Below the pieces are notes generated by a model. It was given only the letters and a program-made list of their open reading frames with translations. It had not been told where the DNA came from and ran no database searches. From positions 1-55,773 of IMG/VR virus record IMGVR_UViG_3300047564_005519: 55,773 bases of DNA; one strand, given 5' to 3'. The stretch comes from a virus. How positions within the stretch are numbered: the first letter of the stretch is position 1; the number at the start of each line of letters is the position of its first letter. Position numbers and translations under genes: made by a program. This document shows positions 2,257 through 49,199 of the stretch, piece after piece.

Positions 2257-5200
2257 ATGCCAGCAAATAATGATACTACTCTCTATATTCTAAGTATGCT
2301 CTATACATATAATGCTTTTGGCGTTGAAGATGAGCAGTATATTAAACAAGTAATAGATATACTTGAGTTGAAAAATAACTATTTCTTCGATGTAGAAGCC
2401 GATAATGCTGGACTTAGAGCTAGAAGGAAAAGCTTTTTACAGGGAACCTATAGCCCACCATCTGAGGCGTCAGCTACCGCCGCTCCTGCGCTGTCAGAGA
2501 ATGGTTCTAAAATATTCTTTACAACGACAATGGAAGCCCCTAAAACTGATGAGTTTGCTAGATTTGCACTTAGTACAGTTATAACTAAATGGCTAGGATT
2601 AAGCACTCTTTTTAGTGAAGCAAATTTAGCTGAACTTGAAGATAAAACTGGTACAACTGGATCAGGATGGAATATAGATCAAGCCTTCCAAAACTTTATA
2701 TTTCAAGAATACTATTTATTAGATGAAAATATTGATTTATTTAGTTTATTATGTGTTAATAGATTAAAAATTTGGTTAGGAATTTGGCAACAAAATGGCA
2801 CGGTAAGTCCTGATCTAGCATTTGTAGAAGAATCAAAAACTATTAGTGAATTTACAGTAATAGAAGGAGAAGATGAACAATCTGATCCTACAGGTTCCAC
2901 TAATACTACAACCGCTAATAATCTTTCCTTTGATGGTTCTAATAATCTTATTTTTATATGGGATAAAGTATTTAGCACTCAAGTAACAGGTTATGAAGCT
3001 GGATTTGATAATATTCACAAAGTTTCTTTTATTAATAGATCTCCATCTTCAGATCAAAAAAATTCATTCTATCGTGTTTTTTCTAAGATAAGTTCTGATA
3101 TTTTAGATGAAAATCAACCAACAAAAGCAATGTTGTCTTCTTTTGGCGGAATTGTAAATAGACTTATTTCTTTTGGATTTTTTGAACTAGCTTCATATGC
3201 GTATGAAATTTCAGAATTCGCTAAGAAAAGATCTGCCAATGTATCCTCTGTCCAAAAGTCCGCTTTTGAATTTATAGATCCAGCAGTCGATCAAGTTTGG
3301 ATAGATAAACTTATTCAAGTTGAATATATAATAAGGAAAGATCCTGTTTTATTCTATAACATTATTAATTATTTCCCAAGTTTAGCAATATTCATATTAG
3401 ATGCACTCACTATAACATCAGACTACTCAAATGGTGGTTTAGGTGGTGGATCTGAAGATATCTTAAATGATCCTGAAGCATTCTTAGATTCTTTAGAAAA
3501 AGCTTTTGGAATGGAAAATGGTAAAGCAGTTTTTACATTAGCTAATCGTTTTACGAATACAGCTAAAAGGATTAAGGATGTCATTGAGAGTTCCCCATAT
3601 CGTGACAATACTCCTCCAGAAAATCCTGATATCTTTCATTTGCGTCTAGGTGCTGCTAACTTTTATGTTCCACCATTAACAATTGATATTAATTCTAGTT
3701 TTAAAGCTGGAAGTTTAATGGGAGCTGCATTACGTCAGAGGAGTAGCCCTAAGTTTAATTCTGGCTATAAAGAAACAACTATTAGAATGAAATTGTTTTT
3801 CCCTAATTATGAAGAGATATGGGGAATCACAATAGACGATGCTTCTAGTATAACTTTAAATGAAGATTTTAAAATTGATTTTAGAGCTAATGGCGATTCT
3901 GACGCAAAGATAGATAAGTTCTTGTCTTCTCTTCGTGGACTTGTAGCTGCTTTTAAGTATTCTCCATTCCTACCTATTAAGAATCACTACCTTAACAGTG
4001 TTCATGGGATTACGGCTGTTGGATTGTCATCAATGACAATTGCAACTATCCCGAATTTCCCATTTGCTCTTGCTGTTGATTTAGAGCTTGTAAACTTTAA
4101 TCATAAACCATTCTTGCCGATGATAACTGATTTTAATCAAGCAATTCATTGGGGTAAATATCGCCAATATATGGGTAAGGCAGCTGGGCATTTAAGTAAA
4201 TATGTTAGTGAAGAATTTTTGTTAAAAACAACCGATCTAAAAGAAACAGATGCTTTCCCATCTGAGGGAATACTAGACGGAAGTGCTATTGATCCAGATA
4301 ATCCTCCTGATTCTAATGATATTGTTATAACAGAAGCTGGTGAATATAGACCATTTCAGGCATTAGATAGCACTACACTAAAGGAGAGCTTGTTACTACC
4401 GGAACTTTTAGCTGCAGAAGCAGCTGGTGATGTATTGAAAACAAATATTCTTAGTGAATGGCGAAATGGTAATCACTTAACATTATTCTCTCCAGCTGAA
4501 GCACAAACTAAGATGTATTTGCCAAGCACTTCTTCTTTTAGAAATGAAGAAGAAAAGATTATGACTGATCTTGGTGAAAGTTTTTGGGATTCACTTTTAA
4601 AGAAGATTGGCATTGATGTTAATCAATCCGCATCATATGGAATTTCATTAGCAGAGACAGTAGATATTTCTAGGGAGAATGCGTACAATCCTTCTATTTT
4701 TAAAACTATTACAGATTTAAATCAAATATGGACTGCAGGTGCAAATCCAAATTCTCAACAAGATTCAATTTACGAATTTTTAACAACTACATTCATTCAA
4801 CAAAACTCTTCTACTTTTCCAAATACAGATGAAGGAAAAGCAGTTAAAGCATGGTTTAAGGATAGAAATAACCCGTACGACGCTGGCTATACGGAACAAC
4901 TTAGTTATATTTTCCAGGGTCAATATATCACAGCTTCCCTATACGCCGTTAAGAATGCTTTTGAGGAAACGGCTAATAATCCAAAGAGTATGCTAGATTT
5001 CTTGATTGATAATCATATAGCTAATATTGAAGGAACAACTGGTCAAGCACCAGACTACGATAAAGTGAAGCAAGAATTTTCTCGAGCTTTCAATGTTGTT
5101 ATGTATGAAAATTTCTTTAGGAGTGGCCCTGTACAAGCTTTGATGGAAGCTTCTAGACTTAAATCTGGACATATTCTTTTTAGAGAATGGGAAGTACCAA

Positions 5201-8200: not shown

Positions 8201-11200
8201 GTAAACCACACTGGCTTTATACATCTGGAGTTGTTCCAGTAACAACTGGTTATCCAACAAAAGAAAAAGCTGAGGAATTAGGTTTAACCAAAGGTCCAAA
8301 AGAAATCACTCCTAATGAAGTTTTAAATAAGATTTTGGATACAATTAACAGAGATACTAATCCGTTAAGTGACTACTCTGCATTTTTTGAGGCATTTGAG
8401 CCCAATGAAACTCTTAGCTCAATGGCTAATGATATAGTTAATTCAAGTGGCATTTATGCTCCTACCCAGTATCTTGCTGGTAAAGTTATTAACTTCATGT
8501 CTTATCAATGCAAGAATTATATATCAGATAACTATGAAAAGAATTCTGATTCACAGGAAGATGGTGTTGTTATCTATCCGGAAACAAGCCTAAGAGCACA
8601 GATGCCTTTGAATAAAGCTAAAGTATATATTGGTACTCACCTTCCAGTCATACCAAGGAAAGAAGCTAGAGAAGATTCTCAAGTATGGACAAAAGTTACG
8701 GATACAATTGAGTCTCAACGTTCACTTCATAAGCAAATACCAAATCTTACTCCAAGATATCAATTCCCATATTTCTCAACAACTGAAAAAACTTTTTTAC
8801 CAAGTGGTCCAGATCTTGTCCCATTAATTGGTGGTGTTTATTTGAAGGATTTTCTTGGTGATGTTGATTTAACTCAATCTGGAGATTATCTCAAATTATC
8901 AGTAATGGAATTAGAGGAATTTCAGATAAGTAAATTTTCGTTAGCACCTGGAATTGGTGGGGATAGTCCATCAATTCAGTTAGACGTTCCTTTGAATTTT
9001 TCTGATCTTAATCAGAAAATTGAAGGAGCTTTTCCAATTGACACAACATACGTAACGATGCCTATCCCACAAACTCAAATTGGTTTTGAATTAGCTAACG
9101 CTGCGACTATTGCTGATGGAACATATAATGATTTTGAATTTCAATCAGAAAACTTTGATTTAGATTATTCAGAATGGGGCGCTCCGGAAACTCCTGAAGA
9201 TGAACAGTTTTATATTGCGATGAGATGGCCTTATCAGCCATCTGGAGTTGATCAAGATACCTTGAATGTTTGGACTTCAACATATGGACTAGATCCAGCT
9301 GGACTGTATGGAACAGCTCAAGAATATAAGGATAGAAAAGTTTTAGTTTATAACCCAAAGAATGGAAGAGCTGTTGTTTGTAGACCAGCTTATTTCTTGT
9401 GGGGCAATAATACGGCAGCAATTGGAGGATATTTTAGCGGTACAGAAATGCAAATCCAAGCGTCAGAATATGACGCTTTAGTCTCACCCGATGCGGCGTA
9501 TTTCCTTGGTGTTATTACTTATAATACAATTGAAGAAATAACCGGTCAAGCACCAATGGCTGTAGAGGAGAGTGAGGTAGTTTCTGCTGCTAGAAGGTCT
9601 GGATATAGATTTGGTCCATCTATACAAGAATGCTATATGGGCTGGGTTCCAGATTATGTGCCTGTTGGGGTAGTGGCAACGGTAGTTGCTCCAGTTGAAA
9701 CATTTAAAGAAGTAGATCCAACTACTGGTGAAGAAAAAACATTGCAAACTACAATAACTGCGGATGGTAGAACAATAACTGCTCCTGGTGCAAATAAAGC
9801 TAAAGAATTAATGATAGGCTCTGCTCCATATATTATTGGATTTGGAGGATTTAGTTCAACATCAAACACTTCAGTAGAAGTAGAAGACACAGTTGCTACA
9901 CGTCTAGCAAAACAGGGGGGAACATCCCCAACTGAGCTAACCGTTATTCGTAATCCAATGTTGGGTGATGGAAGAGGCGGAATTTCAACAAATGACCCAT
10001 TTGCTGTTATGTCATTGTTTAATGTTGAGTATTATGATGTGCAAGAATTTTATGAGTATGCCGGTAATCCAGTTAATATAGGTGATCATAAAACTTTCTT
10101 TGATGCAGTTGTTCAGGCCGATTATGGGGTTATCTCAAAAGATAAATTAAATGAATTCAAATCTGAAGATATTAGTCTTAATGCAGATAAAAGAACTAAA
10201 TTCCTTAGTGTATGGAATGTTGCTGATCTGATCAGTGTACAGGCCCGTCAATACTATGATGAAGACTATGATCCTAATGTTTCGGTAATTGCTGGTAATG
10301 GAAGAACTCTGATGGAAGCTCAGGAAATTTGGGATCAATTTAGAGCAGAATATCACACTTATGAAAGTGTAAAAAAAATCTTTGCAGATATCTTTGGATT
10401 AAATCCTGACAGTGAAGAAGAGTTTCCTCAATTATTTAAAGCTATTATCACTGGTGATGACACTCGTGATACTGGGTTAAGTACTTTATATAATAGTAAA
10501 GATGGATTACAGGATGAATTTGGAATTCTACTTGGATCAGATTATGTAAGCGGACTTTCTGTTGGTAGTCCGACTTCTCACATTGAAAATGATTATCAAA
10601 ATCAATATCTTGAGGCATTAGATTTTATGGCCAGAAATTTAGTTGACGCACCATTAGATAAGGGTGGGTTAATTAAATATTATGAAAATATTATGAAAAC
10701 TAATTTCTTAAGAATTTATGAAAACTTTTTCTCTGGACAAAACATCGAAAATATTTTTGGGTTTAGTTTAGAAGCTGAAGATGGCGCCCTTAATGCTCCC
10801 GTTAATGCTAAAACTTTATTGCACGATAATATTAATAGTCCTAAGCAACTTTTCTTGTTGATGGTTGGTATCTTCCGTCAAAGAATGTGGGAAGATCCTT
10901 ATGCAAGAGCATGGCTAGTTTTGAAGCCAGACAGAATCAGTAGTTGGGCTCCATGGAGCGATGGTAACGGCTGGTCATTTAGACCTGTAGATAAGATTTT
11001 CAGAGCATTTATTGATCCTTATCAAGACTATGCTAAATCCAGTAAGAAGGCAAAGTTTTTGGAACTTCTCGTTAAAACAAGGGGTGAAGGAAATAGTTCT
11101 GGAACTGTATATGGTGAGGTTCTCAATGATGTTGGAACTTTTGTAAATAGAACAGTTGGACCATTAGTTGGTGCATTAGGCGGTGCTTTAGGCGGACTAT

Positions 11201-13566
11201 TGTCTATGTTTAAAACCTCAATGCAACAGTTGGGTTATGCTCTTTCTGAAGTTGGAAACTTCAAAAAGCAAGCAAATATTTTAAATAAAGTTCTAAATGA
11301 TTCTATCTATTATTCTTTAGGTAGACCGGGATCTATTTTACGAGCTGTTGATAATCCATTTACTAGAGAGTATGGCGAACCAGTTATTGAGATACGTGAG
11401 CCATTCCAAAGAATTCATTATATTAGCTCTTTTTCTCATATTTTATCTAATCAAATTCAAGAAAATATCAACGGTGTTGCAACATCGATCACCGCTGTAT
11501 CTGATGGAAAATATCCTGTAACTGTTGCTTTAGATAAAGGTGCGCCAGCAGAACGTCAAGTAGAAAAAACAATTGAAACTGGAATATATTACGATAATAT
11601 GACTGGATCTGGATTCTTTGGATCTATCTTACACCCCTTATTCCATCCTTTAGAAACAATCAGGGGAATCGCAAAGAATGCTCAAGGTGCTCCTGATGAA
11701 TTAAGTGCTCGACGTATTGCTTTAGCGCACTTAAAGGAATCTATTAAAGATATCTATCAAGGAGAATTAATTGTTATAGGCAGCCCTGATATTAGACCTC
11801 ATGACTTAGTGTATCTTTCGGATATTTATGAAAGAATGTATGGAATTTTTGAAGTTGAACAAGTTATCCATCACTTTACTCCAGAGCTCGGATTCATTAC
11901 ATCGATTACCCCTAATGCATTGGTAACTGTAAATGATCCAGCTAGATGGTTTGCTACCTCGTGGATGCAATCTTGGATGCATGTCCAAAACATAAGAAAT
12001 GATACAAGAATCTATTTGGATAGAGCTCGGTCTTCAAGCTCTGGAATTTCTTATGGTGGAAATATCTCTATTGATAGATTAAATGAAGTTTTATCCCCAG
12101 AACTGATTGGTGGATTCCAGTATACTCATGGATCTAGCGCCTTAGTTAAAGATATTATGGCTAATCAGAGTGCGATGGATATGCCCGGTCAGTTTGCTTC
12201 CAAATTGGATCAAGCAGCACAAGAAAATGGTGGTGTGCCAACTCCAGTATTAATGGCATCAGCTATTCCTCTAATAGGCGGAATGGTATGGGATGGTTGG
12301 AAATGGATACGCGATAATGTTCTCGATCAGCATGGTTGTTACGTTCAATATTTGAATAAAAATGGTCAGCCTATGGATGCGGGACTGTCATACAATCAAG
12401 GTATGGCTGTCGGGCAGCATCACAGTAAAGTTTTATTGCCAGGTATATTGGGCGTTCGAGTTAAGGCTAGAACTCCTGAAGGATATGGATATATTAGAAC
12501 TGATGATCTTTTTAAGAGTCTTGGTTGGAGAGAGTCTGAAATTAATGATCTAAATAGATACATATCATATGAAGCAGCTTTGACTCATTCTCGAGTTTTG
12601 GGAATTGCTGGCATTGGTCCAGATAAAGCTGAATTTGAATGGAAGTTTAGGGTAATCTGTAAAGTCGTAGACGTCCTAGACGGTGACACCATAGATGTAA
12701 TTGATGTCATCTCTGGAGCCCAGTTTAGAATTCGTTTTGATGGAGTCAATACATCTGAGACGAATACTATGGGAGGAAAAATTACTGTTCCAGATACTCG
12801 TACTCCTGGTGGTGAGCTTGATTATGAAGCAACTTTTAGCTTGTTAGATGTAACAACTCCTGGCGGTAAAGCAAAATTGTATGTTAAGAATGCACTTAAG
12901 GACAAAATTATTATTGTTAGGATTAATCAGACTAGAACTGATGCTGGTTCAGGTTCTGGTGGTAGAGCTGTATTCGAGGATGATTTTGAAGCTGGTGCAG
13001 CTCTGAATGTTAAGGAAAACTATCAATTAGACATTTTTGGTAGAACATCTACTGGTGAACTGGAAGATGGGAATTCTCGTGTTCTTGGTTCTATTATGTA
13101 TTATTTCACTGATGAAATGATTGATAAGAGTTCAGTGTATATTGCCAACATATTTAGACAATTTGCGATGGATGTTGATGTTATTAAAAATAAAGTAATT
13201 GAAGATATCTATGATAAATCTCCTTTTGCCATTCATTTTGGAAAAATTTATGATGCGATTGATCAAACGATTGGCACTCAATTCTATAATATAGTTAGTC
13301 CATCAGATATGTTGTATGATCTTCCAGAGGATCAAGCAAAAGCTTTTTCTGTTTTAGTTTATTTTAAGGTACTAGAAGAAATATATGAAGCAGCTTCTCA
13401 ATGGCCGCAAATGTCTTGGGATGAGTATTATCCTGATGGATATCCAATAACTTTAAACTGGGAATTAGTTGTTAATAATTTAGCTAAAGTTTTCGTTAAA
13501 GATCTCCAGAAAGAATCACAGTCAGTAATAACTGCTAATGAATCTTCTGGACTACCTGTAGTATAA
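2257..13566 (+). CDS. Giant multidomain baseplate hub protein with embedded SNase-like nuclease domain
   Basis: This 3769-residue protein is several times the usual length of a phage hub. Two related beta-rich domains occur at about 456-650 and 978-1118; both contain an Ile-Lys-Asn element followed by Pro-Asn-Phe-Pro and a Val-x-Leu-x-Leu-Val strand. Residues about 1504-1655 look like the late-control D/gp27 hub fold, with a Gly-Tyr-Gly turn and a 'FNGIITNVE' strand. A hub-like 'FYGKPHWLY' stretch follows at about 1943-1992. Residues about 3167-3228 resemble the hub C-terminal barrel ('GELIVIGSPDIRPHDLVYL'). Glycine/alanine-rich hydrophobic segments lie near 1871-1925 and 2962-2990. Residues about 3464-3620 form a staphylococcal-nuclease-like domain (D3475, D3477, R3493, E3501, R3596). 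The start has a GCGGAGC ribosome site. The hub role is inferred from these motifs and from the lysin, spike and wedge genes downstream. The first 450 residues are unassigned. Confidence 0.85.
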   Translation: MPANNDTTLYILSMLYTYNAFGVEDEQYIKQVIDILELKNNYFFDVEADNAGLRARRKSFLQGTYSPPSEASATAAPALSENGSKIFFTTTMEAPKTDEFARFALSTVITKWLGLSTLFSEANLAELEDKTGTTGSGWNIDQAFQNFIFQEYYLLDENIDLFSLLCVNRLKIWLGIWQQNGTVSPDLAFVEESKTISEFTVIEGEDEQSDPTGSTNTTTANNLSFDGSNNLIFIWDKVFSTQVTGYEAGFDNIHKVSFINRSPSSDQKNSFYRVFSKISSDILDENQPTKAMLSSFGGIVNRLISFGFFELASYAYEISEFAKKRSANVSSVQKSAFEFIDPAVDQVWIDKLIQVEYIIRKDPVLFYNIINYFPSLAIFILDALTITSDYSNGGLGGGSEDILNDPEAFLDSLEKAFGMENGKAVFTLANRFTNTAKRIKDVIESSPYRDNTPPENPDIFHLRLGAANFYVPPLTIDINSSFKAGSLMGAALRQRSSPKFNSGYKETTIRMKLFFPNYEEIWGITIDDASSITLNEDFKIDFRANGDSDAKIDKFLSSLRGLVAAFKYSPFLPIKNHYLNSVHGITAVGLSSMTIATIPNFPFALAVDLELVNFNHKPFLPMITDFNQAIHWGKYRQYMGKAAGHLSKYVSEEFLLKTTDLKETDAFPSEGILDGSAIDPDNPPDSNDIVITEAGEYRPFQALDSTTLKESLLLPELLAAEAAGDVLKTNILSEWRNGNHLTLFSPAEAQTKMYLPSTSSFRNEEEKIMTDLGESFWDSLLKKIGIDVNQSASYGISLAETVDISRENAYNPSIFKTITDLNQIWTAGANPNSQQDSIYEFLTTTFIQQNSSTFPNTDEGKAVKAWFKDRNNPYDAGYTEQLSYIFQGQYITASLYAVKNAFEETANNPKSMLDFLIDNHIANIEGTTGQAPDYDKVKQEFSRAFNVVMYENFFRSGPVQALMEASRLKSGHILFREWEVPMLRVDLDPNSVIINGVTVSLGNSLVKLQVQMLDEPTYQHIGGRDSYINISMTVIGEKELVKLKKVFDHISGLARLEHSTGVIGFLGIKNIITALAGIKYVMPLNYSVNTRPNFPHVYDVELSLVDFDVFQQKREELSSKQQRDLVDHFGTKRNPFLRIKQLWGSFNAYPDFPLSVVDNSGEIVGHLDPDFYFRSFQMFDQDVVNNLSGQIPKIQNYAFEDPVSTADIGFVATATEKIKEFMRLYNDNVNGTNSPEVKNSILEDIVSWMDENQVNKQRFVNIFYTIVKSEAADYASPTVKYQLLTDFISFDSGINEDNPYGMQELQGSQFQVGDYSPNDASMLSSIEAALEGKYNLVYYDEQFGAYKQEDFVSFHPDEVDFHKQIFSIPASDPKAIESGKIPSILHTAIGVYYGYIDKKNGRFYLTIAGNNVKMDENKNIQFGTNYFLDTQTPDKGTTQPLSGVSGVSALSEYQKPNKGDEPGHWETMMVDTQYRDVSGRMIRAFPTYMLWLIDEGGYFAGAKLFDNFYGLQSIIDFSVVTSEDLLGDTLIFRVSNLYSKLTTKPSTELFSSEDYSGDNGPLNLSQGMTGILDRSINMARNIASGMNDYVPDIMNIRLKPGVRVHLRMGYGANPNALQTVFNGIITNVEQGEIVTVTAQSDAIELGAVVNSTDQKGSSGKIDGGVDTGMYLSEPRDLMVRLLSMGASRVREAFAHATRGTVFSQNKFGIRHFGSILYEPLSEGEAAKSDAIRESITGAMGYHSTENGGNTSDPSLGAAAGFSFNLRSGLVPLMSQMWSNFASQTDLEIFKRNIYPGNGLGVAQFLGGDIDDGWSTVSSIVETQEANDRTSGYLGRLSDQSYNELLIRYQQDDKSAQETVANLTAGNALNTEGHSFMNFAAKGVVGGAAVAGVAALFGPISGAVAGAGLLGVLSGRGGTNLFRTMGILSANPDDDLPGFDEISFRAQTYMRTVWDLFQTCARLLPNYIVAVRPFEDRSTVFYGKPHWLYTSGVVPVTTGYPTKEKAEELGLTKGPKEITPNEVLNKILDTINRDTNPLSDYSAFFEAFEPNETLSSMANDIVNSSGIYAPTQYLAGKVINFMSYQCKNYISDNYEKNSDSQEDGVVIYPETSLRAQMPLNKAKVYIGTHLPVIPRKEAREDSQVWTKVTDTIESQRSLHKQIPNLTPRYQFPYFSTTEKTFLPSGPDLVPLIGGVYLKDFLGDVDLTQSGDYLKLSVMELEEFQISKFSLAPGIGGDSPSIQLDVPLNFSDLNQKIEGAFPIDTTYVTMPIPQTQIGFELANAATIADGTYNDFEFQSENFDLDYSEWGAPETPEDEQFYIAMRWPYQPSGVDQDTLNVWTSTYGLDPAGLYGTAQEYKDRKVLVYNPKNGRAVVCRPAYFLWGNNTAAIGGYFSGTEMQIQASEYDALVSPDAAYFLGVITYNTIEEITGQAPMAVEESEVVSAARRSGYRFGPSIQECYMGWVPDYVPVGVVATVVAPVETFKEVDPTTGEEKTLQTTITADGRTITAPGANKAKELMIGSAPYIIGFGGFSSTSNTSVEVEDTVATRLAKQGGTSPTELTVIRNPMLGDGRGGISTNDPFAVMSLFNVEYYDVQEFYEYAGNPVNIGDHKTFFDAVVQADYGVISKDKLNEFKSEDISLNADKRTKFLSVWNVADLISVQARQYYDEDYDPNVSVIAGNGRTLMEAQEIWDQFRAEYHTYESVKKIFADIFGLNPDSEEEFPQLFKAIITGDDTRDTGLSTLYNSKDGLQDEFGILLGSDYVSGLSVGSPTSHIENDYQNQYLEALDFMARNLVDAPLDKGGLIKYYENIMKTNFLRIYENFFSGQNIENIFGFSLEAEDGALNAPVNAKTLLHDNINSPKQLFLLMVGIFRQRMWEDPYARAWLVLKPDRISSWAPWSDGNGWSFRPVDKIFRAFIDPYQDYAKSSKKAKFLELLVKTRGEGNSSGTVYGEVLNDVGTFVNRTVGPLVGALGGALGGLLSMFKTSMQQLGYALSEVGNFKKQANILNKVLNDSIYYSLGRPGSILRAVDNPFTREYGEPVIEIREPFQRIHYISSFSHILSNQIQENINGVATSITAVSDGKYPVTVALDKGAPAERQVEKTIETGIYYDNMTGSGFFGSILHPLFHPLETIRGIAKNAQGAPDELSARRIALAHLKESIKDIYQGELIVIGSPDIRPHDLVYLSDIYERMYGIFEVEQVIHHFTPELGFITSITPNALVTVNDPARWFATSWMQSWMHVQNIRNDTRIYLDRARSSSSGISYGGNISIDRLNEVLSPELIGGFQYTHGSSALVKDIMANQSAMDMPGQFASKLDQAAQENGGVPTPVLMASAIPLIGGMVWDGWKWIRDNVLDQHGCYVQYLNKNGQPMDAGLSYNQGMAVGQHHSKVLLPGILGVRVKARTPEGYGYIRTDDLFKSLGWRESEINDLNRYISYEAALTHSRVLGIAGIGPDKAEFEWKFRVICKVVDVLDGDTIDVIDVISGAQFRIRFDGVNTSETNTMGGKITVPDTRTPGGELDYEATFSLLDVTTPGGKAKLYVKNALKDKIIIVRINQTRTDAGSGSGGRAVFEDDFEAGAALNVKENYQLDIFGRTSTGELEDGNSRVLGSIMYYFTDEMIDKSSVYIANIFRQFAMDVDVIKNKVIEDIYDKSPFAIHFGKIYDAIDQTIGTQFYNIVSPSDMLYDLPEDQAKAFSVLVYFKVLEEIYEAASQWPQMSWDEYYPDGYPITLNWELVVNNLAKVFVKDLQKESQSVITANESSGLPVV

Positions 13567-19776: not shown

Positions 19777-22700
19777 ATGAAGCAATATCTATTACTTCTT
19801 AAAAGTTCAGATTTTAATAAAGTAGGAAATATCTGGACAAGTAATCCTATTAATCTTTATGTCAATAGCCAATACAATAATTATTCAAGCGTCAGGTCAA
19901 TTTACGGTTTAAATCTTATTGGTGACAGAACTTATGTTGGAGTGGAACAAACATCACCCTCACTAGTAGGTGATGAAAGCACTCCTTATTCGCAATATGC
20001 GACTTATGTCACCGATGCCGGTGAGGTTGTGTATGATCCAGCAACACCAGAAATTGTTAGATTTGTTGATACCACTTCTCGTATTGATATATTAAGCTAT
20101 CGACATGCGTTCACTAATCTTACTGGGAATATTGTACCAACTTTTAATTTAACGGTTTACGAATCTGATGAAGAAAATGGTCCTTGGATGATCTCATCCA
20201 TTTCTTCAGATTCTAATATTATTTTTATCCGTAATTCAAAACCATTCATTAAGATCGAGTTAGAGATCTTCGCTGATGAACTAGATCTAACAACAATTGG
20301 TCTTGTATTCTACCTGGAAATAGGTATATATGAAATAACTTCACCAGTTATTTCTAAGTCAGCTAAAAATATTTTAAAAAGATTTCCTTCATGGACCAGC
20401 ATATACGCTGACTCTGTTGATTCGACACCTTCTTTGCAAGTTCCAAATTCTGTCGGTGGAAAACTTATAACTTCACTCTTGCAAGAAAGTCTAGATGACA
20501 TCAATAGTGAAATTGAATTATATAATATAAATAATTTTATTGACAGCGCCAATGAAAGTCAAATAGCTTGGGCTTATGTATCATATAACGTTCCTCAAAA
20601 TGTAAACACAATTTTTGGGGATGGAGTTGAGCTTTCAAGAGTTAGTACCTTTAATGAGTTACTTGACTCAAGGATCACAGATTATATCTTCTACTATAGT
20701 CCATTTGATCGTCAATTATTTACGATTAGAAACTTTGGAATATTATTAGTTAATGGTAGCTCTTTTGAGCAGGAGCCTATTAATATCTTTAATGATTTTG
20801 ATGAGTTTGGAGCCAGAGTCGGCTTGCCACGACTTTATCTAGAATCTAATTCTAATTTTAAGAAGAGAATTTTTGACGTAACCGCTAATATCCCTGCTGC
20901 TAATTCTGAAGGATTTAAAAGAACTCTTAGAAGAGAGTTAGATTTATGGAGAGCCTATGGAGCTACTCCTGATTCAAACTATCTTGGAGCCACTCCAGAA
21001 GTTTTAGAGATTTCTGATCTTGAGTTGTCAACACCATATTTCAACGATGCCGGTGTTCCACAAAAAGAGTTTAAAACATTTGTTAAGAATTTGAATGAAA
21101 AATATCCATCAAATTGGGGCTACGTTAGTTGGGGTAATGGTATTTGGGACTACGCTGGCAAAATTGGAGACGGTGTTGCTCGTGTACCAGCTGTGTATGA
21201 TACTAATTTAGAAACACTTGGAGATCTTTATCAGCCAGGTGTTGGCGATTTTGATGACGCTAAGATAATGCTAGTTCCTTCAGAAGCAGCTACTGTATCT
21301 TTTGAAGGTAACGCAAAAATTGATGGATGGATTAGAACATCTCTTAAAGATGTTTATTCACCCATCTTAGTAGAATATTCTTGGTATGTGAACTATACGG
21401 CTATTGTTCCTGATTATGAGGCAAGTAAAACTGGTGTTGCTTTAGTTTATGAGGTGAGTCTTCCTCCTCATGGCAATTCTGCTACACCTAGTGTTTTTTA
21501 TTCAAATTTGAATTATCAAGACAGATCAGACTTTTATGTTGGTAATCATTTCTTTGACACCTCGACAGCTAGTCCTGAGGGGTCTTTTATAAGAATCTTT
21601 GATGATGAGGGAATGAGTTTAGACGAAATAGTCTTTAGAGATAAAGTTTACGATCAAGTATATCTCAACACCTCAACATCGCCATCGTATTCTAATATTA
21701 ACGTGTATGATGCGGCGTCTGTTAATTTAGTTTTTGGTAAGAAATGGAATGGATCAACATATGATGATGTTGTCTCTAATGACTATAGAGTATCTTTCTC
21801 GGATTATATTTTAGATTATCATCTAAATCCAATTGCAGGTAGTTCGATAGAACTTTCTTCTCCCAACATTAATAATCTAAATTCATCTATTGTTATAGGC
21901 TCAGATTTATATCCAACTACTCCACAAATTTTTTCTACCAATGTTTTGTCTTCAAGTTTTGTCATCAATGAGCTAAATGATTTAGGATTAAACGGTCGTT
22001 CTACACCAGTTATTTATCCTTCTAATCTTATTAATGGCATTATTATTCCTCACACTGGTGCTACTCCTCATAATCTATATCTTAATACAAAGATTCCAGT
22101 TGTTAGAGCATCAGAGAATACTCAAACAATGCTGCCAGGTGGCATAACTAAGGGTCCGAATGATGTATCTAATACCTTTATTCCATCTTCACCAAATATT
22201 AGGTGGGTTGGATACAATGTTTCTGATGTTGCGGTCACTTCAGAAGATTATTTTGATAGCGCAACAATTAACTATTCAGCTACTCCAGAATACATAAAGG
22301 TATATTCGTCTGATGGAGATCTATATCCACGTACGAGATACTTCTATACTCCATTTACAGCGCAAACAACTCCAAATTTATATAATGGATATATTGATGA
22401 AATTGGAAGAGTTTATAAGGATGAGGATGATTATCAAAATAGCGTTTACTTGATACAGGATAAATATTTAGAAACAATTTCTTTAAATAGGGAATCTTTT
22501 GGGTTATCTGCAGATGTGGACTATATTGTTAACTCATTGTATCTTTCCGCTACACCTGACTATATTATTCCAGAATTCGATAATTTAAACACCGCGTTGA
22601 CTTCTGTTAATGATGGCATATCTAACGATTCATCAAGTGATTTTGATGTATATGTTAATATAAATAACGAGAAAAAGAATCGATATGGTGTTGGAGTTCA

Positions 22701-24321
22701 TTCTGGTTGGATTTCAATTAAAGAAGAAGACGAATATATTTATGTGAACCCAGAAAGTGCAACTGTTAATGGTCAATTCTTTGAAATTGAATTAGATCAT
22801 GAACCAAGAATGTTTGCTCCGTTCATTGCAAAAGTTAATGATACACCTCTAAGAAAGGTTGTCTTTGAGGATTCTGCTACTCCCGGTAAAGCGTCATTCT
22901 GGAATACTGAACTAGTTGATGGTAATTTGAGTAATTCTCTTTATTTAGCTTATGAAAATTTGAGCAATATTTCCGTTAAAGATTCTTATACTGGATATAC
23001 TTTATTTAGTGGATTATCAACTTCAAGTAATATTGTGACACCCTTTAGTGAAGCTACGCCTTCTATTAGTGGACGTGAATATGAAGTAACATATTATGTC
23101 AATGACGCATTCTATGTAGATAAAGATGAGTACGATTCGATTAATGGCACATATTCGTCAAAGGTCTATTTTAGTTCTACTCCAAATATGGCCTCTAACT
23201 ATTATCTTACATATGAAAAAGATTATCAAAATGATTTCATTCCATCCGAACTTTTGATTAATCAAATTGATTTATCAATATATGAAGGATTTATCTATTT
23301 AACAAAAGATGAATTTAACTTTAATGCAGCTGAAGTACATGTAACACCTAAGTTAATATCAGATAATTTAGATGATCTATTATATGTTTCTATTATTTCG
23401 TATGATGAAAACGGAAACTTTAAACCATATCAAACCTTTAGGGTATACGGTGACAATATCACCGCTGAAGATGAATACTTAACTACTAATGTCAATGGTT
23501 TTGCTACAACTGTCGTTAGATATTCTGGCCCAATTCCAGCTGTGATAGACGATGACGTAATTTATGTTGAGGGAATTGGTTCGGCCACTCCTAATGGACA
23601 TGCCAATAGCATGTCTGCCGGATTCTGGAATACTACTAGTTACCAAATTCAAAAATCTAGATCTTTTGATCTTAAGCTTAGAGCAGTTCCTGGTACATTT
23701 AAGTCAGAAACTAATGATACTAATATCATAGGTTTCCAGGGAATAATTGAATGGAAAGATAAGCCATTCGCTCATCAGGTTAATATTTCTTGGTCTCAAG
23801 CAAGAACTCTTTATGATCTTTTTAATTCTCCAATGACAAACAATATTGTTTCTAATTCTGATGGAACTTTTGTTGTTAATGAAGATTTGTTAGCTCATTC
23901 CATTGAAGATCCTGGTCATTGGTTTGTTAGAATTGAAATTACAGATACAGCATCAACAATTTCTTCCATGCTAGCTCTTGATGGTGAGACAATTGATCCT
24001 ACAGATATTACTATTACAGGTGATATTATTTATTGGAATGAAAGATACGATAGTGTCGAGTTTGCTTCAGAAGATGTTCCTCTTCCATATACATTTGTTC
24101 ACGAAAAGCAAGCCAATTCTAATCTTATTGCCACTCCAAACTTTGTATATCAATATTATAATAATGATGGTCCAGTTTTTATTGATGCAACGCCAAATTG
24201 GGAGCCACCACAGTGGGTTCCCTTAAGAAAGTTTGATCAGTATCAAATGCAGATTTTAGGTACTACACCTAGCTATATAGTGGATTATGGAATAATTCAT
24301 CCTGATGGTGGAGAAGAATAA
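19777..24321 (+). CDS. Large baseplate/tail protein with recurrent Thr-Pro motifs
   Basis: The protein has 1514 residues and is predicted mostly beta. Residues about 190-270 ('NILKRFPSWTSIYAD' followed by 'GGKLITSLLQ') have the layout of phage tail protein I-type wedge proteins, and the gene lies where that protein is expected after baseplate J. The rest looks like repeated beta-sandwich units rich in Tyr, Asn, Ser and Asp. By hand count it has about two dozen Thr-Pro dipeptides, most as Ala/Ser/Thr-Thr-Pro, spread along the chain and commonly at apparent strand boundaries. The start has an AGGAT ribosome site. A wedge-to-fibre or receptor-contact role is inferred; no enzyme motif is visible. 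Confidence 0.65.
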   Translation: MKQYLLLLKSSDFNKVGNIWTSNPINLYVNSQYNNYSSVRSIYGLNLIGDRTYVGVEQTSPSLVGDESTPYSQYATYVTDAGEVVYDPATPEIVRFVDTTSRIDILSYRHAFTNLTGNIVPTFNLTVYESDEENGPWMISSISSDSNIIFIRNSKPFIKIELEIFADELDLTTIGLVFYLEIGIYEITSPVISKSAKNILKRFPSWTSIYADSVDSTPSLQVPNSVGGKLITSLLQESLDDINSEIELYNINNFIDSANESQIAWAYVSYNVPQNVNTIFGDGVELSRVSTFNELLDSRITDYIFYYSPFDRQLFTIRNFGILLVNGSSFEQEPINIFNDFDEFGARVGLPRLYLESNSNFKKRIFDVTANIPAANSEGFKRTLRRELDLWRAYGATPDSNYLGATPEVLEISDLELSTPYFNDAGVPQKEFKTFVKNLNEKYPSNWGYVSWGNGIWDYAGKIGDGVARVPAVYDTNLETLGDLYQPGVGDFDDAKIMLVPSEAATVSFEGNAKIDGWIRTSLKDVYSPILVEYSWYVNYTAIVPDYEASKTGVALVYEVSLPPHGNSATPSVFYSNLNYQDRSDFYVGNHFFDTSTASPEGSFIRIFDDEGMSLDEIVFRDKVYDQVYLNTSTSPSYSNINVYDAASVNLVFGKKWNGSTYDDVVSNDYRVSFSDYILDYHLNPIAGSSIELSSPNINNLNSSIVIGSDLYPTTPQIFSTNVLSSSFVINELNDLGLNGRSTPVIYPSNLINGIIIPHTGATPHNLYLNTKIPVVRASENTQTMLPGGITKGPNDVSNTFIPSSPNIRWVGYNVSDVAVTSEDYFDSATINYSATPEYIKVYSSDGDLYPRTRYFYTPFTAQTTPNLYNGYIDEIGRVYKDEDDYQNSVYLIQDKYLETISLNRESFGLSADVDYIVNSLYLSATPDYIIPEFDNLNTALTSVNDGISNDSSSDFDVYVNINNEKKNRYGVGVHSGWISIKEEDEYIYVNPESATVNGQFFEIELDHEPRMFAPFIAKVNDTPLRKVVFEDSATPGKASFWNTELVDGNLSNSLYLAYENLSNISVKDSYTGYTLFSGLSTSSNIVTPFSEATPSISGREYEVTYYVNDAFYVDKDEYDSINGTYSSKVYFSSTPNMASNYYLTYEKDYQNDFIPSELLINQIDLSIYEGFIYLTKDEFNFNAAEVHVTPKLISDNLDDLLYVSIISYDENGNFKPYQTFRVYGDNITAEDEYLTTNVNGFATTVVRYSGPIPAVIDDDVIYVEGIGSATPNGHANSMSAGFWNTTSYQIQKSRSFDLKLRAVPGTFKSETNDTNIIGFQGIIEWKDKPFAHQVNISWSQARTLYDLFNSPMTNNIVSNSDGTFVVNEDLLAHSIEDPGHWFVRIEITDTASTISSMLALDGETIDPTDITITGDIIYWNERYDSVEFASEDVPLPYTFVHEKQANSNLIATPNFVYQYYNNDGPVFIDATPNWEPPQWVPLRKFDQYQMQILGTTPSYIVDYGIIHPDGGEE

Positions 24322-39734: not shown

Positions 39735-40442
39735 ATGTCTATCGAAGACATCAAAAAAGCAGTAGCCGATAAGTCTCTTCCAATGGAAGTCGCAGAAAAG
39801 TATTTAAAACTTTATGTTGCAGATATTGAGTGGCAACAGCATATCACTAGATTGTGGAATAATTCTTTAAACAAACTTAAAGACATAGATCACACTAAAC
39901 AGCATCTGAAAAATGCTATCGCATGCACTACTATATTACCCCTGGTGGAAAAAACGCCAATCCCTGATCCACCACAAAACCTATTATTTTGGTGTCCTGG
40001 ATGGCATCAATTTAAAGAACAGGATTGGTTTGAATCTCTTATGGAAATTATGAGAGAAGATATAATAATTTCCGAAAATAGAAATAAAATAATTAAAGTT
40101 GGAGTTATAGATCCCATTGATGTTAGTCCAGTTACTCGTCAAGCATACAATTGGCTTTACGATAAGGTTCTCGCAACTGAAAACATAGACTCTTTAAATA
40201 AAAAGGATTTAGAACTAAAACTAGCTAATCTAGTTCGAGCATATGGTGGATCTGTTATTTGCAGTATGTTTATGAACTATAAGCTTAATGTAGATAAAGT
40301 ATTAAATTGGCGAAGTGGTTATTTTTTTGAAAAGCAGATCTATAAGGTATATAATATAGATCAAATCTTAAAGATCAAAACCACTGAATTAAATAAAACA
40401 AATCAAAAGTATATTAAAAAAATTGGAGCTAATAATGGTTGA
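39735..40442 (+). CDS. Hypothetical protein upstream of ribonucleotide reductase
   Basis: The chosen ATG at 39735 has an AGGAAAG ribosome site; an upstream in-frame TTG at 39693 lies inside the terminator hairpin and is rejected. The 235-residue product is soluble and predicted mostly helical. It has a Trp/Pro-rich middle ('LLFWCPGWHQF') near residues 95-105 and a basic C-terminus. I recognise no family. It is the first gene after the late terminator and overlaps the reductase gene by eight bases, so it belongs to the nucleotide-metabolism transcript. A regulatory or accessory role is possible but unsupported. Confidence 0.7.
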   Translation: MSIEDIKKAVADKSLPMEVAEKYLKLYVADIEWQQHITRLWNNSLNKLKDIDHTKQHLKNAIACTTILPLVEKTPIPDPPQNLLFWCPGWHQFKEQDWFESLMEIMREDIIISENRNKIIKVGVIDPIDVSPVTRQAYNWLYDKVLATENIDSLNKKDLELKLANLVRAYGGSVICSMFMNYKLNVDKVLNWRSGYFFEKQIYKVYNIDQILKIKTTELNKTNQKYIKKIGANNG

Positions 40443-42537
40443 ATCGATTCTTCTCAACAGTGATACAAATAATTCTAAGGTATCAACTTTTCTATTTAAA
40501 TTAAGTGAAGAATTTGTTGATTCATATAGAAGTAAACCCAGTCCATTTGGTTATCGGGACGCAGTTGGTAACTCTGTTGGAGAGATAACTTTTCTCAGAA
40601 CATATTCTAGAATAAAAGAAGATGGAACAAAAGAGACCTGGGTAGATGTCTGCGAGAGAGTTATTAATGGAATGTACTCTCTCCAAAAAGAGCACTGTAA
40701 AAAGAATAGATTACCATGGAACGATTTAAAGGCTCAGGCATCAGCTAAGGAAGCTTTCGATAGATTATTTAACCTTAAGTGGACACCTCCTGGGCGTGGT
40801 CTTTGGGTCATGGGAACTCCAATCGTAATGGTTCAAAAGAACTCAGCAGCTCTTCAGAACTGCGCGTTTGTTAGCACTGGAGAGATGACTAAGAATAATC
40901 CCGCAAAGCCCTTCGGCTTCCTCATGGAGGCCTCGATGCTGGGTGTCGGTGTAGGATTCGATGACAAAGGCGCTGATAAAGATTTTACTATCTACGAGCC
41001 AAATAGACCTACAATTGTTGAGAATATTGAAGACTCACGTGAAGGCTGGGTTAACTCAACGACACAGCTCATTAATTCATATTTAAAGCCAGATCAGAAT
41101 CCAATTGAATTTGACTATAGCTCGATCAGACCTGCTGGCACTCCTATTAAAACCTTTGGTGGCACTGCAGCTGGTGCTGATCCATTGATCAAGCTTCATA
41201 AGCATATTCGCAGAATGTTCGATGGCCGCAATGGAGAAAAGCTCACTAGAGTAGACATTGCTGACATTGGCAATACAATCGGCGTATGTGTAGTATCTGG
41301 CAATGTTCGTAGATCCGCAGAACTTCTTATCGGAAGAATTGATGATGACAATTTCTTAAATCTAAAGAATGCGGAGCGTTTTCCTGAGAGAAACTCTTAT
41401 GATTCTTCCGCTCCTGGGTGGGGATGGATGTCAAATAACTCAGTAGAAGTTTCGGTTGGTACCGATCTATCTTCTATTGTCGATGGCATTTCTAGAAACG
41501 GTGAACCAGGAGTTATCTGGATGGATATGTCACGTAAATATGGTCGCCTCGCAGATGCCCCAAACAATAAGGATTGGCGAGTCGCTGGGTATAATCCATG
41601 CGCTGAGCAGTCACTCGAGTCATACGAATGCTGCACGCTTGTGGAGACCTATCTCAATAGACATGATTCTTTAGATGATTTTAAGCGCACATTAAAGTTT
41701 GCTTATCTTTACGCTAAGACTGTCACATTACTTCCAACTCACTGGGAAGAGACTAATGCTATCATGCAAAGAAATAGAAGAATTGGAACTTCTGTTTCTG
41801 GTGTCGCTAACTTTGCAGACAGACTTGGTATGCCTACATTAAGAGAGTGGTTAAATGATGGCTATTTAACAGTTCAGCGTTATGACAATATTTATTCAGA
41901 ATGGCTTGGCATTAGAGAGTCTATTAAGACAACTACTGTAAAGCCTTCTGGTACGGTATCAATCCTTGCTGGAGAATCTCCTGGCGTTCACTGGACTCCT
42001 GGTGGCAAGTATTTTATGCGAGCTATCCGATTCTCAAATGATGATCCAATGCTACCATTATTTAGAATGGCAAACTATAGAGTAGAGCCAGCTTCAGAGT
42101 CACCAGATACCACGTCTGTAGTATTTTTCCCAATCAAGTCTGACGCTTCTAGATCTGAAAAAGATGTTACCATATTCGAGAAAATGTCTCTTGCTGCTGT
42201 GGCTCAAAGATATTGGTCAGACAATTCAGTTTCTGTTACAATTTCCTTTGATTCAGAAAAAGAAAAAGATCATGTTGGAACTGTTCTTCATATGTATGAT
42301 GGACAGCTAAAGACTGTTTCTTTCCTTCCACAAGGTAATTTCACATATCCCCAGATGCCATATACTCAGATTAGTGAGGAAGAATATACAGAAAGTTCTC
42401 TCAATCTGTTGCCAATTGATCTATCTGGTGTATACTCTGGTCTGGCAGCAGATGCGATAGGCGAAAACTACTGTACAACATCAGCATGTGAGGTCAAATT
42501 TATAATAGATAATCAAAAACCTCTCAATGAAAAGTAG
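40435..42537 (+). CDS. rtpR: Adenosylcobalamin-dependent (class II) ribonucleoside triphosphate reductase
   Basis: This 700-residue monomeric reductase converts ribonucleotides to deoxyribonucleotides for phage DNA synthesis. It matches the Lactobacillus leichmannii RTPR type. C143 ('NCAFVST') and C400 ('YECCTLVE') would form the active-site redox pair. C389 and E391 in 'NPCAEQ' are the thiyl-radical Cys and catalytic Glu; the 11-residue C389-C400 spacing equals C408-C419 of the Lactobacillus enzyme. A C-terminal CxxxxC (C680, C685) would re-reduce the active site. The ATG at 40435 has a GGAGC ribosome site; an in-frame TTG at 40423 is less likely. The last ~16 codons are duplicated, in diverged form, beyond the HNH gene that follows. 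Confidence 0.92.
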   Translation: MVESILLNSDTNNSKVSTFLFKLSEEFVDSYRSKPSPFGYRDAVGNSVGEITFLRTYSRIKEDGTKETWVDVCERVINGMYSLQKEHCKKNRLPWNDLKAQASAKEAFDRLFNLKWTPPGRGLWVMGTPIVMVQKNSAALQNCAFVSTGEMTKNNPAKPFGFLMEASMLGVGVGFDDKGADKDFTIYEPNRPTIVENIEDSREGWVNSTTQLINSYLKPDQNPIEFDYSSIRPAGTPIKTFGGTAAGADPLIKLHKHIRRMFDGRNGEKLTRVDIADIGNTIGVCVVSGNVRRSAELLIGRIDDDNFLNLKNAERFPERNSYDSSAPGWGWMSNNSVEVSVGTDLSSIVDGISRNGEPGVIWMDMSRKYGRLADAPNNKDWRVAGYNPCAEQSLESYECCTLVETYLNRHDSLDDFKRTLKFAYLYAKTVTLLPTHWEETNAIMQRNRRIGTSVSGVANFADRLGMPTLREWLNDGYLTVQRYDNIYSEWLGIRESIKTTTVKPSGTVSILAGESPGVHWTPGGKYFMRAIRFSNDDPMLPLFRMANYRVEPASESPDTTSVVFFPIKSDASRSEKDVTIFEKMSLAAVAQRYWSDNSVSVTISFDSEKEKDHVGTVLHMYDGQLKTVSFLPQGNFTYPQMPYTQISEEEYTESSLNLLPIDLSGVYSGLAADAIGENYCTTSACEVKFIIDNQKPLNEK

Positions 42538-42568
42538 TTTTTACTTTTTGTTGTGTTACTAAATTCAT

Positions 42569-43021
42569 ATGAAAAATAAAACAACAACCAGATTATGTCG
42601 TCAATGCAAAATAGATAAACCATTACAAGACTTCTATGAAGATAGTCGTGTCAAAAAAGATGGACGTCGATCCAAATGTAAAGAGTGCCTAACTAATGGT
42701 AAGCCACCTGGCCCAGTGCCAATGAATCCTCTTACTCGCTATGAGGTTGATCAAAAAGGATGCTGGATCTGGAAAGGCGCAGTACATGCTACTGGCTATG
42801 GACAAATTAAATGGAAAGGGCAGTCTACCGTTGCTCATCGTGTTGTCTATGAGTTAACTAAGGGAGCAATACCTAAGGGTCTCTATTTGGATCATTTATG
42901 TAGTGTTAAGCTTTGCGTTAATCCGGAACATCTTGAACCGGTGACTCAAAAAGTAAATATTCAACGAGCATGGAATCGCAACCACTGTGCCACATGTACC
43001 TGTTTTTTAGAGGAAAAATGA
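42569..43021 (+). CDS. HNH homing-type endonuclease inserted after the reductase gene
   Basis: The 150-residue protein has an N-terminal CxxC...CxxC zinc finger (residues about 9-40). A tryptophan-bearing 'GCWIWKGA' strand follows. Residues about 89-122 carry the HNH_3-type core 'AHRVVYELTKG', 'LDHLC' and 'CVNPEHLEPV'. A further Cys cluster lies at the C-terminus ('HCATCTC'). Such free-standing phage endonucleases nick or cut cognate alleles lacking the element and spread by repair. There is no clear ribosome site. Its stop overlaps the ATG of a 17-codon reductase-tail remnant, and codons matching the reductase C-terminus flank it on both sides. This marks it as a recent arrival between the reductase and the next gene. 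Confidence 0.85.
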   Translation: MKNKTTTRLCRQCKIDKPLQDFYEDSRVKKDGRRSKCKECLTNGKPPGPVPMNPLTRYEVDQKGCWIWKGAVHATGYGQIKWKGQSTVAHRVVYELTKGAIPKGLYLDHLCSVKLCVNPEHLEPVTQKVNIQRAWNRNHCATCTCFLEEK

Positions 43022-43071
43022 CAACAGACAGCTGTGAAGTAAAGTTCATCAAGGAAAACGTTAAAGGATAA
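43018..43071 (+). pseudogene. Displaced remnant of the reductase C-terminal coding segment
   Basis: This 17-codon stretch reads MTTDSCEVKFIKENVKG and stops. It aligns with the intact reductase tail at 42475-42504, which reads TTSACEVKFI. Five adjacent codons (Glu, Val, Lys, Phe, Ile) differ only at the third base, so the two copies share protein-level ancestry but are not a recent exact duplication. The final codons contain the AAAGGA ribosome site of the next gene, starting two bases later. This implies that the reductase originally ended here, directly before that gene. The ATG overlaps the HNH stop (ATGA), so a short peptide might still be made, but it lacks the first Cys of the redox pair. 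Confidence 0.75.
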
Positions 43072-43072
43072 A

Positions 43073-43435
43073 ATGTCAGACGAAAATAATGACCACGATT
43101 TTGACAAAGTTTTTGAAGAAATTGTGAATTCAGATGATTTGAAGCAGATCAAGGAAAATTATGACACAGATGTTCGTCATGGTGTTAAAGAGTTGATATT
43201 AATTCAGCAATCTTTGGCTGACGTTTCTGGTCATATTTCTGAGATTCTTCTTCGTTCATTGTCCGAAAATACTATGGTTTTTGGTGACGATAATGTTTAT
43301 CATAATTTATTATCTTCGATTTATAAAATCTCTGAAGATTTTAACGAATATATGGTAGATTATTATATTGTGATCGATGACGATATGGACATAGATCTTT
43401 TTGATGAAGATGAAGATGGAGGCGAAGATGAGTGA
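43073..43435 (+). CDS. Acidic hypothetical protein
   Basis: This 120-residue protein is strongly acidic: the N-terminus is Asp/Glu/Asn-rich, and the C-terminal ~20 residues are nearly all Asp and Glu. The middle is predicted helical, with a hydrophobic face typical of a helical bundle. It has no membrane segment or catalytic motif. The AAAGGA ribosome site lies within the reductase-tail remnant, and its 3' end overlaps the thyX start by eight bases. A regulatory, DNA-mimic or protein-binding role is conceivable from the charge alone, but I cannot assign a function. Confidence 0.7.
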   Translation: MSDENNDHDFDKVFEEIVNSDDLKQIKENYDTDVRHGVKELILIQQSLADVSGHISEILLRSLSENTMVFGDDNVYHNLLSSIYKISEDFNEYMVDYYIVIDDDMDIDLFDEDEDGGEDE

Positions 43436-44108
43436 GATCATTAATGTACTAGATAATGGGTATGTCAGATTAGTTGATATCATGGGCAATGATCTTTCTG
43501 TTGCCAATGCCGCCAGAGCATCATTCGCTAAAGAATCGACAGAATTAACACCTGGAGATGAAAGACTAATTAATTTCTTGGTTAGAGAAAATCATATGTC
43601 ACCATTCCGACATGCCTTTATGACATTTGAGTTTAAGGCTCCACTCATGGTCGCTCGCCAACATTGGAAGTATATTGTTGGCAGTGACCATACAATGGAT
43701 GGTTGGAATGAATCTAGTCGTCGGTACGTAACATCGGATCCAGAGTTTTATACGCCTAGTATATGGCGTTCTGCTCCAGAAAATAAAAAGCAGGGATCTG
43801 GTGCTCCAGTTGATCAGGTAATTGCAAATCAATTAACACTAGATTTAGTTAAGTATTATTCTGAAGGAATACATCTTTACGAACAGGCTATGGAAAATGG
43901 TGTTGCTGCAGAACAAGCTAGACTGTTCCTCCCTGCGTATGGGATGTATGTTAATTACAGATGGTCATGCAGTCTTCAATCCGTGATGCTATTCCTCAAT
44001 CAACGCTTAGCTGAGGATTCTCAAGTTGAAATTCAAGAATATGCAAAAGCAGTTAAAGATTTAATCGAAGATAAGTTTCCTATTTCTATTTCTCTTTTAG
44101 TTGGTTAA
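43428..44108 (+). CDS. thyX: FAD-dependent thymidylate synthase ThyX, with atypical signature
   Basis: The 226-residue protein converts dUMP to dTMP with FAD and methylenetetrahydrofolate. Family features visible are 'ENHMSPFRHAFMTFEFKAP' near 50-73, R77-Q78, 'WNESSRRY' at 93-100, and the C-terminal 'ARLFLPAYGMYVNYRWS' region near 163-185. The classical RHRx7S signature is altered: where RHR is expected the chain reads KYIVG or DHT, depending on alignment, with about five or six extra residues. The ATG at 43428 overlaps the preceding stop and has a GAAG ribosome site. It works with the dCMP deaminase two genes downstream, which would supply dUMP. Confidence 0.9.
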   Translation: MSEIINVLDNGYVRLVDIMGNDLSVANAARASFAKESTELTPGDERLINFLVRENHMSPFRHAFMTFEFKAPLMVARQHWKYIVGSDHTMDGWNESSRRYVTSDPEFYTPSIWRSAPENKKQGSGAPVDQVIANQLTLDLVKYYSEGIHLYEQAMENGVAAEQARLFLPAYGMYVNYRWSCSLQSVMLFLNQRLAEDSQVEIQEYAKAVKDLIEDKFPISISLLVG

Positions 44109-46181: not shown

Positions 46182-46544
46182 ATGGAATTATATTGGTATA
46201 GGGGATCTGTTGTAAAAATTATAGATGGAGATACTCTTGATATAGATATCGATCTGGGTTTCGATATCTGGCACTCTATTAGAGTTCGTCTTAATGGCTT
46301 AAATGCACCAGAAACAAGAACTTCTTCACTTGAAGAAAAAGAGGCTGGTCTACGGTCTAAAGAATTTGTTAAAAGTTGGCTCGATAATAGAGGATATAAG
46401 GTTCTTTTACACACTATAAAAGATGGTACTGAGAAGTATGGAAGAATTTTAGCCGAAGTCTATGATTCAACCGGATACGATAATCTAAATAACGATCTAA
46501 TAAAAGAAGGGTTTGCTGTTCCATATAATGGTGGACACAAATAA
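46182..46544 (+). CDS. Staphylococcal-nuclease-like (TNase) protein
   Basis: This 120-residue, single-domain nuclease has all the family signature residues. 'IIDGDTLDIDID' holds the calcium-binding Asp. 'VRLNGLNAPE' places the catalytic Arg and Glu eight residues apart, as in S. aureus Arg35/Glu43. 'EKYGRILAEV' carries the third catalytic Arg, and 'LIKEGFAVPYNGG' closes the domain. There is no signal peptide, so it acts in the cytoplasm unless packaged. It may degrade host DNA or RNA to recycle nucleotides, in keeping with its operon. A second copy of this fold is embedded in the giant hub at 2257-13566. Confidence 0.88.
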   Translation: MELYWYRGSVVKIIDGDTLDIDIDLGFDIWHSIRVRLNGLNAPETRTSSLEEKEAGLRSKEFVKSWLDNRGYKVLLHTIKDGTEKYGRILAEVYDSTGYDNLNNDLIKEGFAVPYNGGHK

Positions 46545-48572: not shown

Positions 48573-49199
48573 ATGAAAAATCGTAAAAAGATAGAAGATG
48601 ATGATGTTGAATTTCTAACAGATCTTTTGTTTGATACGAATCTTTCACTATCAGATATAGCTAAAGAGTTAAATACTGATATTTCTGAAGTAAATAAGAA
48701 GATTAATTTACTTGGATTAAATTGGCTGAAGACCTCTAGACGAAAAATGTCTAGAGGTCAAACAGCTTTAACTCTGCTGTTGAAAAAACTTATTCCAGGT
48801 GAAGAAATTGTTAACGAATATCATATTGGCGATAAATTAAAGCTAGACATTTATTGTCCAAGTTATAAGTTGGCAATTGAATTTCATGGTCGTCAACATT
48901 TCTATTACACTAGTAGATTTTTTGAATCTAAATATGAGTTTGAAGAAGCACAAAAGCGTGATATCAAAAAAGCAGACTGGTGCAAAGAGAATGATATTGC
49001 ACTAGTTGTGTTTCGATATAATGATTCGTTAACAGAGCAAAATGTTTGTGATAGAATATTGGATGCGATTAGAAATAGTCCGACTCCAAAAACTGATAAA
49101 CAGGGGAAGTCGATCACTTCATCTGATTTTTATCAGAGTATGAAGAAGAAGAATTCGCAATACAGAAAAGATCTATATAGGAAAATGAAGGGTAAATAA
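48573..49199 (+). CDS. HTH-linked restriction-fold (VSR/DUF559-like) endonuclease
   Basis: The 208-residue protein has two parts. Residues about 10-50 ('LSLSDIAKELNTDISEVNKKI') form a helix-turn-helix of the type that reads DNA. Residues about 75-165 match the PD-(D/E)XK endonuclease fold of VSR/DUF559 proteins: D92 ('LKLDIYCP'), then E103-x-H105-G-R-Q-H109 ('IEFHGRQHF'), a long helix, and 'DIALVVFRYND'. It may be a recombination or replication-fork nuclease, or cut specific sites through its HTH. It directly precedes the helicase gene in the replication module. The basic C-terminus could bind DNA. Confidence 0.7.
   Translation: MKNRKKIEDDDVEFLTDLLFDTNLSLSDIAKELNTDISEVNKKINLLGLNWLKTSRRKMSRGQTALTLLLKKLIPGEEIVNEYHIGDKLKLDIYCPSYKLAIEFHGRQHFYYTSRFFESKYEFEEAQKRDIKKADWCKENDIALVVFRYNDSLTEQNVCDRILDAIRNSPTPKTDKQGKSITSSDFYQSMKKKNSQYRKDLYRKMKGK

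Follow-up and report, generated by a model that had tools for sequence, protein, structure and literature searches.

The window, a 55.8 kb IMG/VR virus record that is a metagenomic contig, carries an HNH endonuclease gene between two diverged copies of the 3′ end of a ribonucleotide reductase (RNR) gene. We consider it very probable, on the basis of comparisons with related viral contigs, that the codons for the RNR cysteine motif are the target of a free-standing HNH homing endonuclease, which imports a recoded, presumably uncuttable 3′ end of the gene. We will show that the displaced copy matches the RNR ends of relatives in which the HNH gene is missing, and that change of the cysteine motif goes with gain of the endonuclease on independent branches.

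Layout of the reductase locus

The locus consists of the following features.

40435..42537, + strand: class II (adenosylcobalamin-type) RNR, 700 aa, with a chimeric 3′ end (Pfam RNR_Alpha and RNR-II insertion domain; 90-92% identical to L050-L052)
42472..42489, + strand: recoded Cys-motif codons TGT ACA ACA TCA GCA TGT (C680 T T S A C685); the HNH-less consensus is C-T-T-D-x-C
42475..42537, + strand: imported replacement RNR tail with the stop TAG; its right end is certain, its left boundary inside the RNR is not placed, and the same allele is present in L449
42554..42562, + strand: extended -10-like element TGT-TACTAA, 6 nt 5′ of the HNH ATG, with a TANNNT equivalent in relatives
42569..43021, + strand: HNH_3 endonuclease, 150 aa, with two N-terminal CxxC pairs (Pfam PF13392, E=1.2e-11; PHROGs HNH endonuclease, 5e-33)
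43018..43071, + strand: displaced ancestral RNR 3′ end, M-TTDSCEVKFIKENVKG-stop, with homology to the uninserted RNR from 43021
43063..43068, + strand: AAAGGA, judged by its sequence presumably the ribosome-binding site for the following gene, within the remnant
43073..43435, + strand: next gene, 120 aa, no assigned function, directly 3′ of the RNR in uninserted relatives
43431..44108, + strand: ThyX thymidylate synthase, a conserved downstream neighbour (Pfam Thy1, E=4.8e-31)

The reductase ends in ...GENYC(680)TTSAC(685)EVKFIIDNQKPLNEK, with the codons of Cys680 and Cys685 at 42472-42474 and 42487-42489 and the stop at 42535-42537, and the HNH gene starts 31 bases further on. It is followed by a scrap frame of 17 codons, from ATG to TAA, whose ATG overlaps the TGA stop of the HNH gene (ATGA). 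The original prediction had described this succession of a reductase ending in TTSACEVKFI, an HNH gene and a 17-codon second end, and all of its coordinates and codon statements hold in the sequence. The five codons after the second cysteine are indeed different only synonymously (GAG GTC AAA TTT ATA / GAA GTA AAG TTC ATC), the presumed ribosome site of the next gene does lie inside the remnant, ahead of the ATG at 43073, and the C680/C685 pair said to be intact is retained in the reductase of the window. Judged from the sequences, the likeness of the RNR end and the scrap is more than chance.

The nearest RNR relatives, L050, L051 and L052, are without the HNH gene and have in common with the window the gene order unknown-RNR-120 aa gene-ThyX-deaminase. 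In L050 and L051 the RNR ends in CTTDSCEIKFVKENAK(Q), immediately 5′ of the next gene, while L052 has TTSAC there. The DNA alignment with L050/L051 is interrupted at the upstream tail and the HNH gene and resumes exactly at the scrap ACAACAGAC, from which point through the next gene the identity is 73-74% over ca 1 kb. The upstream motif DNA of the window, on the other hand, is just 56-59% identical to L050/L051, whereas the remnant matches them. Since the RNR ends of the uninserted relatives sit right before the next gene and match the scrap, the proposal that the scrap represents the original end of the gene is borne out. The left end of the imported tract is not resolvable in the window because the nearest relatives are too diverged.

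As the window is a metagenomic contig, an assembly artefact or a sequencing error might have made the upstream stop and the second copy, but the probability of this is negligible. L449, which comes from another sample, shares the RNR end, its stop and the start of the HNH gene, with 99.9% identity over 2727 bases, to window position 42611, and this excludes a sequencing error as the origin of the stop; L005 and L142 (see below) are moreover independent versions. L449 and the HNH-less T-T-S alleles discussed below were retrieved with a 50 aa protein query.

Another option considered was that the HNH gene is carried by a self-splicing intron, or an intein, such that RNR codon 680 is spliced to the remnant. 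The sequence ACAAC is common to both junctions, so that joining at this point would give back CTTDSCEVKFIKENVKG without change. However, an Rfam search of 42200-43400 returned no intron match, a group I core could not be accommodated in the ca 80-90 nt outside the HNH frame, the upstream copy encodes a full RNR end terminated by a stop of its own, and 15 HNH-carrying relatives, being without a full second RNR end, offer none for splicing. We regard splicing as extremely improbable, and the distinction from an intron or a split gene that had been drawn initially is thus upheld.

The endonuclease family in other contigs

Another 17 viral contigs contain homologues 65-80% identical to the HNH protein of the window, and all 18 genes of the family are located directly behind an RNR gene. 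Among close relatives, presence or absence of the HNH gene varies at this single site. No relatives were found in 84,980 prokaryote genomes; isolated phages contain HNH homologues of less than 60% identity only, and the listed ones are not annotated beside an RNR gene. The search for a close donor of the tail and HNH gene of the window returned none. The RNR and HNH lineages disagree, in that L004 and L142 are 93.5% identical in the RNR core and 72% in the HNH, and the acquisitions were therefore separate.

The gene is under purifying selection, with dN/dS of 0.04-0.09 in homologous pairs, and the HNH residues H90, D108/H109, N118 and H121 are invariant in an alignment of 12 homologues. An AlphaFold model based on 12 homologues had a mean pLDDT of 43 and was set aside. 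A TANNNT is present 6-7 nt 5′ of the HNH ATG in all 17 relatives (17/17), mostly with TGn in front, which has one mismatch in the window; this promoter-like element suggests leaderless transcription of the HNH gene.

A second full layout is seen in L005, with CTTSSCEIKFVIENSK-stop, the HNH gene and then the remnant STDSCEIKFVKDNAQKA, the homology of which starts within 1 nt of the junction in the window. A full second copy is exceptional, and most related insertions retain no remnant or a few codons. In L004 and L012 the junction lies 3′ of the RNR stop and the remnant is zero. The HNH proteins of L142 and L141 end in RIKIG* and RVKIV*, while the uninserted RNR of L294 ends in CEIKIG*, so that in these two contigs the displaced RNR tail supplies the C-terminus and the stop codon of the HNH protein. 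In the L142 gene (935-1390) the last codons (RIKIG-stop) are those of the displaced RNR C-terminus, in an in-frame fusion. The right junctions were placed where a close relative existed on that side, L001, L007 and L144 being left out.

Some further genes of the window can be mentioned here. A second putative homing endonuclease (48573-49199; PHROGs homing/HNH endonuclease matches, no Pfam match) lies directly 5′ of a helicase-like gene. A stretch of a 3769-aa protein (2257-13566) resembles staphylococcal nuclease by eye (DGDTIDVIDVISGAQFRIRFDGVNTSET), although Pfam found no family there, and a separate SNase-family gene is located at 46182-46544. A probable tail protein of 1514 aa (19777-24321) contains, by eye, many scattered S/A-T-P tripeptides (SATP, TATP).

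Co-conversion and recoding of the cysteine motif

We now turn our attention to the origin of the upstream tail. The RNR DNA of L004, which carries the HNH gene, is 100% identical to that of the HNH-less L308 over 700 bases, up to ca 170 bases before the Cys motif; from there to the HNH gene the identity is ca 82%, and beyond the HNH gene it is 95.9% over 1 kb. This pattern is a co-conversion tract. Together with the motif divergence in tight pairs with and without the HNH gene (see below), the foreign flank in L004/L308 supports the earlier suggestion that the element came with a replacement, recoded 3′ end.

The same comparison bears on the scenario in which a local duplication of the RNR end came first, the HNH gene landed later between the copies, and the copies drifted. 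Two copies in direct orientation do flank the HNH gene. They are strongly diverged, yet the downstream one still matches the uninserted relatives; the upstream one resembles other HNH-carrying ends, with the TTS motif also in L001 and L005, and the L004/L308 tract is foreign and not a duplicate. We find duplication followed by drift very unlikely.

In a tree of 281 RNR genes, from which the 70 residues preceding the motif were left out, the HNH state changes at least 10 times. In nine independent pairs, loss of C-T-T-D accompanies the HNH gene in ca 6.5 on average, and the opposite direction is seen in 0.2. The C-T-T-D is altered, to V-T-D, S-T-D or T-T-S, in 14 of the 18 HNH-carrying alleles vs 21 of the ca 265 HNH-less ones. 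Over the 27 nt of the motif, the identity in tight pairs and in the pairs of the window itself is below that of ca 99-100% of HNH-free control pairs with equal identity of the RNR body, fractions that were obtained from pairs which are not independent and should not be read as p-values. For the more distant pairs (L005, L007, L008, L147), the divergence of the motif mostly stays within what the controls show.

It is important to point out that four HNH-carrying alleles (L002, L004, L141 and L142) keep C-T-T-D, and that three of the four are changed solely at codons further downstream. Either the target thus reaches beyond the Asp codon, or resistance has a different basis. These alleles would also fit a conventional free-standing homing endonuclease that sits between genes and cuts at a remote site, in which case the recoded tail would reflect passive divergence or hitch-hiking and confer no protection; free-standing endonucleases of phage T4 usually cut hundreds to thousands of bases off (PMC2988022). 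However, both long remnants start at one place inside the motif, the motif changes together with HNH gain on branches that are independent of each other, and in the tight pairs this change exceeds the control divergence. We therefore judge a distant cut site to be unlikely. That the recoding destroys the cleavage target, as first put forward, is supported indirectly by the association over ca 10 events and by the two remnant junctions at one place.

As a further point against the proposed reading, altered motifs also occur in some HNH-less phages, namely L052, L452 and an STD clade, with T-T-S in L052/L450/L451 and in L452 (TTSAC/TTSSC). The L052 tail resembles a hybrid of the two tails of the window (TCAGCATGT... 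then GAAAACGCTAAATAA); it could have arisen by loss of the HNH gene through deletion between the repeats, or could represent an escape allele. In another case, the RNRs of L120 and L421 are 97% identical, yet their C-terminal tails are entirely unlike each other (CETDACEIKFVIENMKDVAPSNVEQADQASS vs CTTDACEIKFIANSQ). No HNH gene of the family of the window was found in L120, and the tails may be scars of another element.

Proposed mechanism and relation to known systems

The mechanism that we propose starts with a co-infection, in which the HNH endonuclease would cleave an RNR allele that has no HNH gene, at the first Thr codon or next to it, within a target formed by the C-terminal cysteine-motif codons, around TGY ACN ACN GAY. 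In the donor-templated repair, the left side would join by homology within the RNR, and through this joining the recoded RNR 3′ end of the donor would be carried along. On the right side, where homology is scarce or absent, the junction would form at varying positions shortly after the last conserved HNH codons, for which reason the HNH C-terminal tails vary. The product would be a complete reductase with both active-site cysteines and an altered, presumably uncuttable site, and whatever lay to the right of the break would stay as a remnant. In the window the remnant is 51 nt, including the presumed ribosome site of the next gene. Cleavage at the first Thr codon is the simplest reading, because both long remnants begin there and most HNH-carrying alleles are altered there or at the Asp two codons on. 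The cutting, its exact position, the resistance of the recoded site and the one-sided repair are what we infer from these patterns.

The same arrangement is found in the C-terminus-swapping mobile endonuclease ORFs of fungal mitochondria, in atp6 of Allomyces macrogynus and in atp6, atp9, cox2 and nad3 of Glomus sp. (PMC3630166). There too, a foreign recoded C-terminus is fused to the host gene with the endonuclease ORF behind it, and the native C-terminus is displaced downstream and matches uninserted relatives, as in the window and L005. The fungal elements reside in mitochondria and in other host genes, while the present one is in the RNR of dsDNA phages, is an HNH_3 with its own leaderless promoter-like element, and has left hardly any native remnant, or none, in the majority of related insertions.

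Homing endonuclease genes are common near phage RNR genes (PMC10448857). The seg and mob genes of T4, e.g. mobE at nrdA/nrdB (PMC2988022), resemble the present case as free-standing phage endonuclease genes, beside an RNR gene, in belonging to the HNH family (mob) and in co-conversion of the flanks. They lie mostly between genes and cut far away (PMC2988022), and mobE of Aeh1 divides nrdA in two; in the present system, the insertion junction falls within the codons presumed to be the target, and the host gene is given a new 3′ end. Prophage e14 in icd of E. coli (PMC11148124) likewise restores the interrupted gene by providing a 3′ end itself, and the former end (icdC) remains beyond the prophage, but this is prophage integration at an attachment site and is not endonuclease-driven. 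No phage case of a C-terminus swap was found in the searchable open literature.

More tentatively, and with somewhat less than even confidence, we suggest that the mobile unit may comprise the endonuclease together with the recoded RNR tail, the latter as a dedicated immunity part that would rescue the essential gene and block re-cutting. Such a unit could have moved into many related phage lineages, driven the evolution of the RNR active-site tail and provoked the HNH-less escape alleles (TTS in L052/L450/L451 and L452).

For practical purposes, L308 and L004 form a natural before/after pair for mapping the cut site and the co-conversion, and in annotation some caution is needed, since a short frame that follows an HNH gene can be the displaced end of another gene. 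In the proposed mechanism, a homing element would settle at those codons of an essential gene that are most conserved and required for catalysis, bringing a repaired copy of them, without an intron or intein, and selfish-gene pressure would thereby be linked to sequence change in the active-site tail of the enzyme.
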